DNA of 64,000 nt. It comes from Halogeometricum pallidum JCM 14848 (GTDB taxonomy: Archaea; Halobacteriota; Halobacteria; Halobacteriales; Haloferacaceae). Below the pieces are notes generated by a model. That model saw only the letters and a program-made list of their open reading frames with translations, was not told where the DNA came from and did not search any database. The stretch spans positions 40,570 through 104,569 of the forward strand of contig NZ_AOIV01000041.1 of the NCBI RefSeq assembly GCF_000337095.1, read 5' to 3'. The position numbers were made by a program, and so were the translations under genes. Shown here piece by piece: positions 13,423-20,637 of this stretch; the stretch's first letter is position 1, and the number at the start of each line of letters is the position of its first letter.

Positions 13423-14187
13423 TCACTCCCCGAACAGCGGTTCGCCCGGGTGGAACTGAACCTCACCCTTGACGGAGACGCGTGCGAGTGCCCGGTCACC
13501 GATGCCGAGTTCGCGAAGCGGTTCCGCGCGGTGAGAGTCGCCGAACGCCACCGAAACCTCGTCAGTGAACGGCCACGCGCCAATCTCACCGTGTACCTCG
13601 TTCGGGACGCGCAGCAACGTGTCGTCTTTGACAGTGTACGTGTAGCCGTCGTCCCGCATCTCCATCGACGGCGGATAGGTGGTCTCGAAGGTGATGAACC
13701 GGTCGCCGTCGACGGTGACGGTCGTTCGTCGGCGGGTACCGTCGTCCCTGTGGGTGATGTCGGCTACGACTTTCGGGAACCCCCAGATATCGACCCCGAG
13801 GGCTTTGGCCGGTTCCGTCGTCACCGGCAGATACCACATGTAGCCGCTCGTCCCGTGGGTCAGCGCCGACAGATACGGAACCGTCGTCGCCGACTCGTGA
13901 ACGGCGGGCAGAACGACGGCAAACTCGTTGTACGGGTCGATCTCGCCGTTGCCGATGCGATGATACTCGACGCTGAGAAACGTCACCGCCGCTTTTCCGC
14001 CCGCCGTCACCCGCATGGGTCGTAGCCCGTCGGGCAACAACGCCGCGAGTTGCCGTCTCGGGACCGTGAACACGGCCCCCAGCATCGTCGCTTCGGTCGA
14101 CAACGGGAGGGTAACCGTCTCCCCCGTCGAGAGCGTCACCGGTTCCGTCTCATCGGATGCTGGTGGTGAGGCGTGGTCTGTCCCCAT
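13423..14187 (-). CDS. Acetoacetate decarboxylase family protein
   Basis: The protein is 254 aa when started at the ATG at 14187. A CTTTATTTC box about 25-30 nt upstream supports a leaderless transcript from this ATG, although the frame stays open further up. It belongs to the ADC fold: VFTVPRRQLAALLP and LSVEYHRIG in the first half, then YLPVTTEPAKALGVDIWGFPK, where the Lys of GFPK matches the Schiff-base lysine region of acetoacetate decarboxylase. Haloarchaeal members are not all decarboxylases, so the substrate is open. It lies on the same strand as, and upstream of, the sensor kinase gene. Confidence 0.75.
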   Translation of the reverse strand: MGTDHASPPASDETEPVTLSTGETVTLPLSTEATMLGAVFTVPRRQLAALLPDGLRPMRVTAGGKAAVTFLSVEYHRIGNGEIDPYNEFAVVLPAVHESATTVPYLSALTHGTSGYMWYLPVTTEPAKALGVDIWGFPKVVADITHRDDGTRRRTTVTVDGDRFITFETTYPPSMEMRDDGYTYTVKDDTLLRVPNEVHGEIGAWPFTDEVSVAFGDSHRAEPLRELGIGDRALARVSVKGEVQFHPGEPLFGE

Positions 14188-15356: not shown

Positions 15357-16130
15357 TTAGTAGTCCTGTCTCTCCAGTTCGATGATGTTCGCCGCGTCAG
15401 ACACCGCCCGCGGGAGTTCCTCCGTGAAGTAGTCGTCCTGCGCGCGACTCGCGGGGACGGCGACGCTGATGGCACCTCTGACCGACACGTCGTCGGACTG
15501 GGTGTCCCTGATGGGGGCCGCGACGCAGCAGAGGCCGTTCAGTTGCTCCTCGTAGTCGAAGGCGACGCCCTCCGTGCGCGCCGTCTCCAGTTCCGCGTCC
15601 AGTTTCTCCCGGTCGGTGATCGTTCGCGGCGTCGTGGCCGGCAGTCCGTGTCGCTCGACGATTTCGTCGACGCGTTCGGACGACACCTGCGAGAGGAACG
15701 CCTTGCCGAGCGCGTTGTCGTGCAGTCGCTTTCGGTTCCCCGCGGTGTCGAAGTTGACCGCGTCCTCCCCGCGATTGTCGTAGATGTAGTAGCCGTAGCC
15801 GTGCTCTTCGACCATCAAGATGCAGAGTTCGCCCGTCTCGCGGGCGAGTTCGTCCACCTTCGCTTTCCCCGCCTGGTACGTGCTCATCTGAGAGACGACG
15901 TCGTGTCCCATCGTCAGCAGGTTCAGACTGACCCTGTAGCCGTCGCGTTCGCGGACCACGAACTCCGCGTCCTCCAGTGTCTTCAGGTGGTAGTGCGTCG
16001 TGCTCTTCGCGATGCCCAGACGCTCTGCTACCTCCGTCGCCGTGGTTCGCTCTCGGCCGGCGAGAAAGCCGAGAATCTCCAGCGTCCGTTCGGAGGCTTC
16101 GATTCGCTTCGTCCCTGTTTCGCGTGCCAT
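15357..16130 (-). CDS. IclR-family transcriptional regulator (first)
   Basis: This 257-aa protein starts at the ATG at 16130. The N-terminal winged helix spans about residues 10-70 (TATEVAERLGIAKSTTHYHL is the recognition region). The C-terminal IclR ligand-binding domain runs to the end, with the usual LHDNALGKAFLSQ and GLCCVAAPIRD segments. It is divergent from the amidohydrolase-DUF59-ADH genes and a perfect inverted repeat lies between them, so it most likely controls that cluster and itself in response to a small organic ligand. Confidence 0.88.
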   Translation of the reverse strand: MARETGTKRIEASERTLEILGFLAGRERTTATEVAERLGIAKSTTHYHLKTLEDAEFVVRERDGYRVSLNLLTMGHDVVSQMSTYQAGKAKVDELARETGELCILMVEEHGYGYYIYDNRGEDAVNFDTAGNRKRLHDNALGKAFLSQVSSERVDEIVERHGLPATTPRTITDREKLDAELETARTEGVAFDYEEQLNGLCCVAAPIRDTQSDDVSVRGAISVAVPASRAQDDYFTEELPRAVSDAANIIELERQDY

Positions 16131-16224
16131 GGTCGTCCCTTCGGACCGAACAGTAATCAATTTTCACCACAGTAGAACCGCCGCTCGCGTCGCACGACGG
16201 CTGAGTTCCCGCTATCGTCCATAT

Positions 16225-16246
16225 ATTACAGAACTATGGCTGTAAT
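16225..16246. promoter_or_regulatory. Candidate operator of the first IclR regulator
   Basis: ATTACAG (16225-16231) and CTGTAAT (16240-16246) form a perfect inverted repeat with an 8-bp spacer. It sits in the 324-bp gap between the divergent regulator and amidohydrolase genes, about 95 bp from the regulator start. Binding is inferred. Confidence 0.5.
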
Positions 16247-16420
16247 CAAATCTGGCATCGTGTTCGACAGCGTAGAACCCACTTCGGCCTCGACGGCGCG
16301 TTCGCAGACGCCGGTTTAACCCTGAGCTCGCGTGTCGAATGTCTCCGGTTCCGGGTGTTCGACAGGATTGAACGGACCACGAAAGGGAGTTTCAGCCGCC
16401 GAGGCGTATCTCACCAAAAC

Positions 16421-16430
16421 AATTATTATG
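16421..16430 (+). promoter_or_regulatory. TATA box of the amidohydrolase operon
   Basis: AATTATTATG lies 25-34 nt upstream of the amidohydrolase ATG at 16455, the spacing of a leaderless haloarchaeal transcript. Confidence 0.5.
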
Positions 16431-16454
16431 GTATGTTCATGAGTCCCATACGGG

Positions 16455-17513
16455 ATGTACCAACAAGACGGAGAGGAGATATTCGTCATCGACGGGCACG
16501 TCCATCTCTGGGACGCCCGCGAGGAGAACATCATACACCAAGGCGGCGAGGAATTCATCCAGTGTTTCTACGACTACCACACCGGATTCACGCCCGAGGA
16601 ACGAGAGTGGGACCTCGAGGAGTATCGGTACTACGGGCCCGACCGGATGACTGAGGACCTGTTCGGAAACGCGGCGGCCGACATGGCCGTCTTCCAACCG
16701 ACGTACCTCACCGACTTCTACGACGAGGGATTCAACACCATCGACCAGAACGCCGAGTTGGCCGAGGAGTACCCCGAACGGTTCGTGCTCAACGGCGCGT
16801 TCGACCCGCGGGACGGCGACGCGGGGATGCGCGACCTCGAACGGCAGAAGGAGGAGTACGACATCCAGGGCGTGAAGGTCTACACGGCGGAGTGGAAGGG
16901 CGAATCGAAGGGGTGGCGTCTCGACAGCGACGAGGCGTTCGAGTTCTTAGAGAAGTGCGCGGACCTCGGTATCGACAAGATTCACGCGCACAAGGGGCCG
17001 ACGATTCGACCGCTGAACCGCGACGCGTTCGACGTCGCGGACATCGACGACGCGGCGAGTTCGTTCCCCGATCTGGACTTCGTCGTCGAACACGTCGGAC
17101 TCCCCCGATTAGACGACTTCTGTTGGATCGCCGCCCAGGAACCGAACGTCTACGGCGGACTCGCCGTCGCGGCGCCGATGGCGCAGAACCGACCGCGAAA
17201 GTTCGGCGAGATAATGGGCGAACTGCTGTTCTGGCTCGGCGAGGATCGCATCATCTTCGGCTCCGACTACGCCCTCTGGAACCCCGACTGGCTGGTCGAG
17301 ACGGTGATGAACGCCGAACTCACCGACGAGCAGAAAGACGAGTACGGCATCGAACTCTCGCCCGACGTGATGCGAAAGATCATGGGCGAGAACGTCGCGG
17401 AACTGTACGACATCGACATCGAGGCGAAAAAAGAACAGTTCCAGTCCGACGACGTCACCGAGGAGTTTGGGCTCGGAGACCACTACGGCGCCCCCGACGC
17501 CACCGCAGACTGA
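16455..17513 (+). CDS. Amidohydrolase (TIM-barrel, PF04909 type)
   Basis: This 352-aa protein has the amidohydrolase-2 fold. It shows the metal-binding HxH in VIDGHVHLWD near residue 15, later histidines in IDKIHAHKGPTIRPL and VVEHVGLPRL, and the catalytic Asp in IIFGSDYALW. The overall pattern, including GVKVYTAEWKGES and FCWIAAQEPNVYGGLAVA, is as I recall it for the amidohydrolase encoded beside bacterial propane/acetone monooxygenases, whose exact reaction is not established. It overlaps the DUF59 gene (TGATG) and is followed by a Zn alcohol dehydrogenase, the same trio as in those clusters. Confidence 0.85.
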   Translation: MYQQDGEEIFVIDGHVHLWDAREENIIHQGGEEFIQCFYDYHTGFTPEEREWDLEEYRYYGPDRMTEDLFGNAAADMAVFQPTYLTDFYDEGFNTIDQNAELAEEYPERFVLNGAFDPRDGDAGMRDLERQKEEYDIQGVKVYTAEWKGESKGWRLDSDEAFEFLEKCADLGIDKIHAHKGPTIRPLNRDAFDVADIDDAASSFPDLDFVVEHVGLPRLDDFCWIAAQEPNVYGGLAVAAPMAQNRPRKFGEIMGELLFWLGEDRIIFGSDYALWNPDWLVETVMNAELTDEQKDEYGIELSPDVMRKIMGENVAELYDIDIEAKKEQFQSDDVTEEFGLGDHYGAPDATAD

Positions 17514-18295
17514 TGTCGAGTCGAACACACAGCGAGGACGGTCCGTCCGTCCCGGACGTACGCGCCCGACTGGACCGCGTCACCGACCCGGAACTCGACG
17601 AATCCATCGTCGAACTCGGCTACGTCGACGACATCGTTCTCAGAGGCCCGGCCGTCGACGTGACGTTCTCGCTCCCGACGGCGTGGTGTTCGCCCGCGTT
17701 CGCGTGGATGATGGCGTCGGACGCCCGCGACGAGGTCGAGTCGCTCCCCTCGGTCGAGACGGCGACGGTCACGCTCCGGGACCACATGCACGAGTCGGAG
17801 ATCACGCGCGGGGTCAACGCACGCGAGTCGTTCGCGTCGACGTTCCCGGACGCCGACGGCGACGTCGCCGGTATCCGCGCCTCCCTCGACGACAAGGCGC
17901 GCGTCGGCCGACAGTTCGAAGCGCTGAACGAACTCCTGGAGGCCGGCCTCACCGAGCGACAGATCGTCGCGCTCCGACGCGAGGACGTCTCGCCCGAAGA
18001 CGGAGCGGTGTTCGTCCGGGACGGTTCGGTCGGTATCTCCGTCGAGCGGGAACCGCTCGCCGAGTACGTCGAGAAGGTCGAAGCTACGGGACTGGTCGAG
18101 ACGGGCGAGGACGTGCTGTTCCGAACGCCGGAGGGTGACCCCATCCCCGCCGACGAGTTCGACCTCGTCCACAAGCGGAGTCGCCTCGCGAAGGTCAACA
18201 TGACCGGGCAGGGAAACATCTGCGATGCGCTCAACGAAGCGCGGTTCGACCCGGACCGACCGGAGACCTACGGACCGCAGGCGGACGAGTCCTGA
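17513..18295 (+). CDS. MIP18/DUF59 family metal-sulfur cluster assembly-like protein
   Basis: This 260-aa protein begins in the overlapping TGATG of the preceding gene. Residues about 15-95 form the DUF59 domain (RVTDPELDESIVELGYV, then LPTAWCSPAFAWMM with the conserved Cys). The remaining 165 residues are a helical extension with no family I can name. In bacteria a DUF59 protein of this extended type sits between the amidohydrolase and alcohol dehydrogenase genes of propane-oxidation clusters. A role in iron-sulfur or di-iron centre maturation is plausible but inferred. Confidence 0.75.
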   Translation: MSSRTHSEDGPSVPDVRARLDRVTDPELDESIVELGYVDDIVLRGPAVDVTFSLPTAWCSPAFAWMMASDARDEVESLPSVETATVTLRDHMHESEITRGVNARESFASTFPDADGDVAGIRASLDDKARVGRQFEALNELLEAGLTERQIVALRREDVSPEDGAVFVRDGSVGISVEREPLAEYVEKVEATGLVETGEDVLFRTPEGDPIPADEFDLVHKRSRLAKVNMTGQGNICDALNEARFDPDRPETYGPQADES

Positions 18296-18373
18296 AGCTC
18301 CCTGTCCGTCTCGTCGGCTCTCGGAGGGTCCCAGTGGGTGGGTGGAGACGACGTACGACGGTTCGACCCGCGG

Positions 18374-18382
18374 ATTTATAAT
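18374..18382 (+). promoter_or_regulatory. TATA box of the alcohol dehydrogenase gene
   Basis: TTTATAATG lies about 30 nt before the ATG at 18410, giving this gene its own leaderless promoter in the 114-bp gap after the DUF59 gene. Confidence 0.5.
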
Positions 18383-18409
18383 GAATGATACGGAACTACC
18401 TCTTGCACC

Positions 18410-19450
18410 ATGTTAGCAGCACGTTTGCACGAGTACACCGAGGACATGAGCGAACCCCTTTCTATCGACGAGGTCGACCGACCGTCCGTCGACGTCTCCG
18501 ACGGCATCGTCGTCGAGGTGGAGGGGGCGGGATGGTGTCAGACCGACAACCACATCATCGAGGGGATGTGGACCGACTACGTCGAACAGACGCTCCCGAT
18601 GACGCTCGGCCACGAGAACGCGGGCACCGTCGTCGAAGTCGGCGAGGAGGTAAACACGGTCGAGGAGGGCGACCGAGTCATCTGTCACCCCGTCGCGACG
18701 TGCGGGACGTGCCGGGCGTGCCGGCTCGGAAACGACATGTACTGCGAGGATCTGTCGTTCCCGGGACTCACGACGGACGGCGGCTTCGCGGAGTATCTCC
18801 TCACGAACGAGCGCGCCGTCATCCCGCTACCGGGCGACGTCGACACGGCGGACATCGCGCCGCACGCCGACGCCGGCATCACGGCCTACCACGCAGTGAA
18901 GAAGGCGGCCGACGAACTGAACCCGGGCGATACGGCCGTCGTCGTCGGCGTCGGCGGCCTCGGGCACATCGGGCTACAGTGTCTGGACGCGATGAGCGCC
19001 GCCGACATCGTCGCACTCGACGTGAAGGAGGCCGCCCGCGACCTCGCGTCGGAACTCGGCGCGAGGCACGTCCTCGACCCGACGGCGGAGGACATCCCCA
19101 GCGCCGTCGACGACCTCACCGACGGGAGCGGCGCCCAGCAGATTATCGACTTCGTCGGCGCCGACGAGACCACCTCGATGGGCCCCGACATCGCCGCGCC
19201 GGGAGCCGACCACCACGTCGTCGGCTACGGCGGCCACGTCCACGAGCCGTCTCAGACGCTCGTCGACGGCGAACTATCCTACCGAGGGACGCTCGTCGGC
19301 CGCTACACCGAACTGCAGGAACTCGTCGCCCTCGTCGACCGAGGGGACGTCGAACTCCGAACGAGCCAGTACGACCTCTCCGATATCAACAGCGTCGCCG
19401 AGCGCCTCGAACACGGCGAGATAGAGGGTCGGGCGGTCATCATCCCGTAG
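18410..19450 (+). CDS. Zn-dependent alcohol dehydrogenase (MDR)
   Basis: This 346-aa protein is a full-length medium-chain dehydrogenase. The catalytic zinc ligands are Cys in GAGWCQTDNH near residue 43 and His in LGHENAG near 67. The structural zinc has four Cys in CGTCRACRLGNDMYC. The Rossmann motif is VVGVGGLGHIG near 180. It should oxidise an alcohol with NAD(P)+ in the cytoplasm. It follows the amidohydrolase and DUF59 genes, as in bacterial propanol/propane clusters, so a short secondary alcohol or diol is a reasonable but unproven substrate. Confidence 0.88.
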   Translation: MLAARLHEYTEDMSEPLSIDEVDRPSVDVSDGIVVEVEGAGWCQTDNHIIEGMWTDYVEQTLPMTLGHENAGTVVEVGEEVNTVEEGDRVICHPVATCGTCRACRLGNDMYCEDLSFPGLTTDGGFAEYLLTNERAVIPLPGDVDTADIAPHADAGITAYHAVKKAADELNPGDTAVVVGVGGLGHIGLQCLDAMSAADIVALDVKEAARDLASELGARHVLDPTAEDIPSAVDDLTDGSGAQQIIDFVGADETTSMGPDIAAPGADHHVVGYGGHVHEPSQTLVDGELSYRGTLVGRYTELQELVALVDRGDVELRTSQYDLSDINSVAERLEHGEIEGRAVIIP

Positions 19451-19533
19451 TCCGCCGGGCGTCGACCGCCCCCGCAGCCGCCGCACTCGAACGGCGCGCA
19501 CTCCGGCGGTTTTCTTTCGATTCCGTCGAACGG

Positions 19534-20637
19534 CTACGACTGCCGTTCGCCGACTCGACGACCGATTCTGTCGGCGGTCCGGAGCGCGTCTCGGACCATC
19601 GGCGGCGTCACCTCGAACGGCTCGTTGTGAATCGTCTCTTCGGGGTCGCACGCCGCCTCGGCGACGGTGTCCAACTGCGCCGTCGTCGCGTCGTCGAGTC
19701 CGATATCGGCGAGCGTCACCGGGAGGCCGAGCGCCAGCGAGAACTCGACGTAGTCCTCGACGAAGCCGTCCTCGCGGCCTTCGAGCACGAGTTGCGTGAC
19801 GGTCCCGACGTTCACCTTCTCGCCGTGTGTGGCGTCGTGCGTCTCCTCCAGTTGCGTCAGCCCGTTGTGTACCGAGTGCGCCGCGGCCAGTCCGCCGCTC
19901 TCGAAGCCGAGACCGCTGAGCAGCGTGTTCGCCTCCGCGACGGCCGCGACGCTCTCGGTGACCGCGCCCTCCTCGACGGCGTCCACGGCGGAGAGCGCGT
20001 GGTCGCGGAGCGTCTCGTAGCAGAGCTTCGCGAGTCGGTGTCCGGCCCGCGTCGGCGTCCCGCCGACGACGTTCTGACCGCCCGACCGGTACGTCGCGTC
20101 GGCCTCGAACCACGTCGCGAGTCCGTCCGCGACGCCGGAGCGGAAGAACCGGGTCGGAGCCCCGGCGACGATCGCGGTGTCCAAGAGAACGAGGTCGGGG
20201 TGTTGGTCGTAGAATCTGTACTCCTCGAACTCCCCGTGCTCGCTGTAGATGACCGACAGCGCACTCGTCGGCGAGTCGGTCGACGCGACGGTCGGCATGG
20301 AGACCATCGCTCCGCCCGTCTCCTCGCGGACCGCTTTCGCCGTATCGAGCGCCTTCCCACCGCCGGCACCGACGATGACGTCCGTGCCGCGTCCGTCGAC
20401 GACGTCCGCAACTCGCTGTATCTCGGTCTCGGAGCTCTCCCCGTTGAACTCGAGCGTCTCGGCTTCGATATCCGCCGCTTCGAGACTCTGAACGACCCGC
20501 TCGCCGACGAGGTCGAGCACGACGTCGTCGGCTAGGAGGAGACACGCCGTCCCGAGCGACCCGACGTGTTCTCCGATATCGTCTACCACGCCCCGTCCCT
20601 GTACGTACGCCTCCGGTGACTCGAATACCTGCGGCAT
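19534..20637 (-). CDS. gldA: Glycerol dehydrogenase-like iron/zinc alcohol dehydrogenase
   Basis: This 367-aa protein starts at the ATG at 20637; a CTCTTAAC box about 25 nt upstream supports this start. It is of the GldA branch of the iron-containing ADH superfamily. The dinucleotide-binding segment GAGGGKALDTAKAV is near residue 97. Metal ligands are an Asp in SGVADGLATWFEA and two His in AAHSVHNGLT and DATHGEKV. It should interconvert glycerol and dihydroxyacetone, or related diols and ketols, with NAD+. It converges on the Zn alcohol dehydrogenase, so it may serve the same catabolic route, or simply glycerol use, which is central in haloarchaea. Confidence 0.82.
   Translation of the reverse strand: MPQVFESPEAYVQGRGVVDDIGEHVGSLGTACLLLADDVVLDLVGERVVQSLEAADIEAETLEFNGESSETEIQRVADVVDGRGTDVIVGAGGGKALDTAKAVREETGGAMVSMPTVASTDSPTSALSVIYSEHGEFEEYRFYDQHPDLVLLDTAIVAGAPTRFFRSGVADGLATWFEADATYRSGGQNVVGGTPTRAGHRLAKLCYETLRDHALSAVDAVEEGAVTESVAAVAEANTLLSGLGFESGGLAAAHSVHNGLTQLEETHDATHGEKVNVGTVTQLVLEGREDGFVEDYVEFSLALGLPVTLADIGLDDATTAQLDTVAEAACDPEETIHNEPFEVTPPMVRDALRTADRIGRRVGERQS

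Follow-up and report, generated by a model that had tools for sequence, protein, structure and literature searches.

The propane-cluster accessory genes in a haloarchaeon

The closest described relatives of the genes considered here belong to the mim/prm propane and acetone clusters of actinobacteria and proteobacteria, which encode a soluble di-iron monooxygenase (SDIMO; MimABCD or PrmABCD). In Rhodococcus, Mycobacterium smegmatis and Gordonia, the accessory genes lie 3' of prmABCD and are named metal-dependent hydrolase, metal-sulfur cluster biosynthetic enzyme, alcohol dehydrogenase and GroEL (PMC4428276). No assigned role was found for the first two of these conserved genes, which are easily taken as monooxygenase helpers. 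Homologues of the first three occur in a 64-kb stretch of the Halogeometricum pallidum JCM 14848 genome (4.38 Mb, 99.98% complete), hereafter the window, as a trio comprising an amidohydrolase-2 family protein (AMH), an extended DUF59 protein and a Zn-dependent alcohol dehydrogenase (ADH). The trio is a self-standing unit in haloarchaea and in several bacterial phyla; AMH and DUF59 form its core and ADH is a looser member. The genes concerned are:

15357-16130, minus strand: IclR-family regulator, divergent from the trio (PF01614/PF09339, IclR_C/HTH_IclR)
16455-17513, plus strand: AMH, 352 aa (PF04909, Amidohydro_2)
17513-18295, plus strand: extended DUF59 protein, 260 aa (PF01883 N-terminal domain plus C-terminal extension)
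18410-19450, plus strand: ADH, 346 aa (PF08240/PF00107, ADH_N plus ADH_zinc_N)

These four genes and a GldA homologue that follows on the minus strand are all intact, and the AMH and DUF59 genes share one base (TGATG, 17511-17515). The order AMH-DUF59-ADH is that of the Rhodococcus and Mycobacterium prm clusters (PMC4428276), and identity to the bacterial members is 51-60% for AMH, 28-40% for DUF59 and mostly 44-51% for ADH. The homology to mim/prm accessory proteins proposed in the first-pass annotation of this DNA therefore holds, gene order included. In contrast to the mim/prm clusters, the window trio lacks an SDIMO and a MimG-type GroEL, possesses its own IclR regulator and is self-standing across Halobacteria.

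Searches of the window by tblastn detected no homologue of an SDIMO, the MmoB coupling protein, the reductase, GroEL or WD40 proteins, and the same families were absent from 42 other haloarchaeal loci except for one GroEL match of 23% identity. The first-pass annotation had allowed for a monooxygenase elsewhere in the same regulon that would make this an ordinary propane pathway. With SDIMOs scored by PF02332, none was found among the proteins of the whole source genome, other monooxygenase families not having been searched; the same search was positive in four of six control plasmid records, known SDIMO clusters among them.

Distribution of the trio

Carriers of the long DUF59 protein (matches at E below 1e-40) account for 123 of 391 Halobacteria, about one third. 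An SDIMO is present in four of the 391 (loci L171-L175), none of which has the long DUF59 protein. In the haloarchaeal loci that were read, AMH and DUF59 are adjacent and on the same strand, with ADH adjoining AMH in most, and the divergent IclR-trio layout recurs in loci L031-L033. A partial second copy of the long DUF59 gene, lacking AMH, was seen in genome G014 (L059 9444-9986) beyond its intact pair.

The same independence is seen in bacteria. Matches were found in 32 of the 251 genomes of a Chloroflexota sample; 25 of these lie above about 440 bits, and 23 of the 25 are devoid of PF02332 (the exceptions being G800 and G721). In the Chloroflexota trio loci that were read, the AMH, DUF59 and ADH genes stay together, and an IclR or sigma-54 regulator usually accompanies them. 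Among Bacilli, five of the six carriers (250 genomes) have no SDIMO, and PF02332 is likewise missing from the whole genomes of three Poribacteria, one Dehalococcoidia, one Ktedonobacterales, Thermogemmatispora, Bacillota including Paenibacillus validus, and one of the two Thermomicrobium-type genomes tested. Thermomicrobium roseum and its relatives exhibit the same four families in the order IclR-DUF59-AMH-ADH with no SDIMO adjacent and an AMH 53% identical to that of the window; they differ from the window in being bacterial and in placing the DUF59 gene before AMH. T. roseum does have an SDIMO of the toluene type, but it lies some 370 kb away and no AMH adjoins it; the source genome has none. 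IclR genes adjoin the SDIMO-free trios of both Thermomicrobium and Thermogemmatispora. Thus, the archaeal trio with an IclR regulator and no monooxygenase is as first reported, but the arrangement is not peculiar to archaea, and the accompanying suggestion of an SDIMO-independent activity is borne out by the distribution. As the AMH and DUF59 genes are intact and inseparable in SDIMO-free organisms, they presumably act on their own.

The proteobacterial and actinobacterial loci, among 80 bacterial AMH-DUF59 loci compared, are mostly SDIMO-linked. In tblastn searches of plasmids, Caballeronia, Bradyrhizobium, Aminobacter, Ponticoccus, Paracoccus and Gemmobacter had the pair next to SDIMO genes. 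On a Rhodococcus aetherivorans BW2 plasmid (L079 7579-9937), an unannotated gene for the large SDIMO subunit is present, and the remaining SDIMO genes are seemingly missing before AMH-DUF59-ADH-GroEL. A WD40 gene recurs in proteobacterial SDIMO clusters that hold DUF59 (e.g. L073 4209-5309), an arrangement that recalls the CIAO1-CIAO2B pair in the Fe-S targeting complex of eukaryotes.

The AMH-DUF59 core pair

The presence or absence of AMH and DUF59 is concordant in all 145 genomes compared. Over 101 loci, the distances of the two proteins are correlated with r=0.90, against a highest value of 0.09 in 500 permutations; the corresponding correlation between AMH and ADH is 0.54.

The pairing extends to distant relatives. 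In Natrinema, Natronorubrum, Haloarcula, Bradyrhizobium and Sphingopyxis, PF04909 proteins of only 26-31% identity have a short PF01883 protein immediately after them (one Natrinema copy appears interrupted), and in a Chloroflexota group at 38-40% identity the short PF01883 gene precedes. The source genome itself contains a second dyad of the short type (L254 1369-2909; C11:103584-104689) beside an acyl-CoA synthetase-like gene. On a Shinella zoogloeoides plasmid (L181 3989-5292), the DUF59 slot after the PF04909 gene is occupied by a NifU-like PF01106 protein with a CxxC motif. A Haloterrigena PF04909 protein of 24% identity has no such annotated partner adjoining it. In view of the distant dyads, the pairing appears to predate the SDIMO link and not to depend on it.

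Conserved residues and predicted folds

AMH matches PF04909 with 165.7 bits (cut-off 26.4) and conforms to the HxH, H, H, D ligand pattern. Across the 43 aligned sequences, residues H15, H177, H179, H213, D271, K141, K180 and C223 never vary, and nearly all of the sequences keep H17; C37 is also marked in the window protein. The AlphaFold2 model (pLDDT 91.8) resembles PF04909 hydratases, hydrolases and decarboxylases in Foldseek searches and, lower in the ranking, the dinuclear oxygenases AibH1H2, SfbO and TruffO. LigJ, LigW, ACMSD and LigY share with AMH the TIM-barrel and the HxH-H-H-D pattern, but their identity to it in the fold comparison is below 20%. Unlike these enzymes, AMH has the invariant K141, an HK motif and a constant DUF59 partner.

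In the DUF59 protein, the PF01883 (FeS_assembly_P) domain covers residues 15-86 of 260. Residues C59, H91, K128, C237 and R244 are invariant in 46 sequences of the long type, C237 lying within the extension. The long protein shares the domain and its conserved cysteine with PaaD and SUF-associated DUF59 proteins but differs from them in an extension of about 170 residues at the C-terminus that carries the second invariant cysteine, and it scores far below the NCBIfam cut-offs for both (PaaD, 26.3 versus 180 bits; SUF_assoc, 20.7 versus 143.4 bits). In the AlphaFold2 model (pLDDT 90.4), the domain resembles 2cu6, 3lno, 1uwd and, more weakly, CIAO2B (6tbn); a tyrosine-recombinase-like match (5hxy) was discarded in view of its high rmsd and TM-score of about 0.3 or less. 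The closest solved structure for ADH is the Aeropyrum ADH (1h2b), followed by the secondary-alcohol dehydrogenase ADH-A of R. ruber.

A proposed function for the trio

On balance, the trio is probably a self-contained inducible catabolic module whose core is a two-gene AMH-DUF59 enzyme. Since the trio stands by itself without a propane-oxidising enzyme, the two core proteins are probably an enzyme in their own right. Catalysis would fall to AMH, whose metal site would comprise H15, H17, H179, H213 and D271, with the invariant K141 and K180 nearby. The extended DUF59 protein would be its dedicated partner, which may hold or deliver a metal or an Fe-S cluster via C59 and C237. ADH would convert a small alcohol into a carbonyl, and AMH-DUF59 would convert this carbonyl, or a hydroxylated derivative at the level of acetol or a 2-oxoaldehyde, further. 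The alcohol would derive from an alkane or acetone in SDIMO-bearing bacteria, whereas the module may be fed directly in haloarchaea and in most Chloroflexota and Bacilli carriers. The physical AMH-DUF59 complex, its cofactor, substrate and reaction, and the inducibility of the module are all predictions.

Neighbouring genes in bacteria, which are of a methylglyoxal type, point in a similar direction. Four Bacilli loci (L075, L169, L194, L195) have DJ-1 genes next to the pair; two of these loci also have glycolate oxidase genes, and a CdaR-type regulator was seen at one. Glyoxalase-like VOC genes are found near 14 of the 80 bacterial pairs and also adjoin the Rhizobium N324 pair. Together with the likeness of ADH to known enzymes and the proteome data described below, these neighbours suggest small hydroxyketone or 2-oxoaldehyde chemistry.

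Several observations weigh against this proposal. Peribacillus and Paenibacillus have lost H17, and in the distant PF04909 family H17, K141, H179, K180 and H213 are kept while H15 and, mostly, D271 are changed; the metal site is thus not uniform. No close solved structure was found for AMH. The VOC neighbourhood is weak evidence because the family is broad, and the 40 haloarchaeal loci with gene calls have no further gene in common around the trio. The literature searched contained no biochemistry of this AMH and no functional study of the AMH-DUF59 pair. Haloarchaeal neighbours were set aside as functional clues, as they reflect only lineage synteny and unrelated families (e.g. photolyase, amine oxidase and E1 dehydrogenase).

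Alternative explanations

When Actinomycetospora grows on 2-hydroxyisobutyrate, the amidohydrolase-like protein of its Mim cluster makes up 3.2% of protein, 1.6-fold relative to acetone; MimC reaches 3.8%, and Adh1 and MimG are also close to the amidohydrolase-like protein (PMC7176365). Such an abundance is more in keeping with an enzyme than with a maturation factor present in traces, and the rough parity of AMH with the monooxygenase subunits speaks against the alternative that survives best, one that we nevertheless consider unlikely: AMH and DUF59 could form a maturation apparatus that gives iron to another enzyme, which would be the SDIMO in bacteria but a different metalloenzyme in haloarchaea. 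All 123 haloarchaeal carriers and most of those in Chloroflexota and Bacilli lack the SDIMO that such an apparatus would serve, and no common alternative client adjoins the haloarchaeal trio. What recommends a maturation role is the company that DUF59 keeps, as SufT, CIAO2 and PaaD are Fe-S or di-iron maturation factors, the DUF59 model resembles CIAO2B, and SDIMO clusters have GroEL beside the pair and, in many proteobacterial cases, a WD40 gene.

It is rather doubtful that AMH itself belongs to the amidohydrolase-related dinuclear oxygenases (AROs), such as AibH2 and SfbO, and has DUF59 as its iron or electron partner. AMH shares with the AROs (AibH1H2, SfbO, PtmU3) the fold, four structures (8sm6, 8sm7, 6m1w, 8ful) being within the top 50 Foldseek matches, and a constant Fe-S type genomic neighbour, the same guilt-by-association by which AROs were found (PMC10811679). 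Non-redox PF04909 enzymes, however, outscore the AROs in the fold search, and the six dinuclear ligands of AibH2, D25-H27-H211-E265-D337-H340 (PMC7782822), have no full counterpart in AMH. Strand 8 reads DYAL or DYAI (D271-Y-A-L) without DxxH, and strand 6 ends in His213 rather than the ligand Glu, as judged by motif position without structural superposition. The partner is also of a different kind, DUF59 (PF01883) or NifU instead of Rieske (PF00355), and no Rieske or reductase gene is present. Membership of AMH among the AROs was accordingly rejected, as the encouraging fold matches are contradicted by the ligands.

In the trees, the proteins do not fall far from the propane-cluster members, in keeping with the relationship first proposed. 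The root of the AMH tree shifts with the outgroup (two outgroup choices gave two roots), so that the tree gives no order for gain versus loss of the SDIMO link. The trio of haloarchaea could be what remains of a propane cluster that was acquired from actinobacteria or proteobacteria and then lost its monooxygenase. This reading would agree with the identical gene set and order and with approximately unbiased (AU) tests that reject neither grouping of haloarchaea (p 0.22 with actinobacteria, 0.063 with proteobacteria), but it is improbable, since the haloarchaeal AMHs form a single clade grouped in the careful tree with those of SDIMO-free Chloroflexota and Poribacteria (94/93, not starred), the haloarchaeal ADHs form one clade beside those of SDIMO-free Bacillota (92), the distant dyads that were read have no adjoining SDIMO, and retention of the trio in many families of haloarchaea speaks for a function that has been maintained.

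Neighbouring features of the window

Further features around the trio are:

13423-14139, minus strand: acetoacetate decarboxylase-like protein (PF06314)
16225-16246, no strand: perfect 7-bp inverted repeat ATTACAG-N8-CTGTAAT between the IclR and AMH genes, a candidate regulator site
16416-16428, plus strand: AAAACAATTATTA, promoter-like element 5' of the AMH gene, its position kept in four relatives
19534-20637, minus strand: glycolaldehyde reductase (GldA-like; Fe-ADH Pfam match, NF053832), judged to be outside the module

The inverted repeat is absent from the three close relatives aligned, and a conserved IclR operator was rejected, as four relatives have no palindrome in common. The acetoacetate decarboxylase-like gene is a genuine PF06314 match, yet it adjoins no other trio examined and was dismissed as a link to acetone. 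The GldA homologue, listed alongside the trio in the first-pass annotation, scores 672 bits against NF053832 (cut-off 550), the model for haloarchaeal glycolaldehyde reductase, an enzyme of a nucleoside degradation pathway (PMC9700705). Because it adjoins the trio in only two of the 40 haloarchaeal loci with gene calls and has a known function, it was left outside the module.

Implications

That a NifU-type protein takes the place of DUF59 next to one distant relative is a hint that many annotated amidohydrolases may be iron-dependent. Tentatively, PF04909 proteins paired with an Fe-S carrier might, in archaea and bacteria alike, make up a so far undescribed class of amidohydrolase-fold enzymes that depend on iron or Fe-S; their substrates, to be cleaved or rearranged, would be small ketones, hydroxyketones of the acetol type or acyl derivatives. 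We hold this to be possible rather than probable. Haloarchaea offer a clean setting for an assay, with established genetics and no SDIMO to confuse the result. If the idea of such an enzyme class is true, the AMH and DUF59 genes of the propane clusters would represent a missing catalytic step of aerobic propane and acetone metabolism.

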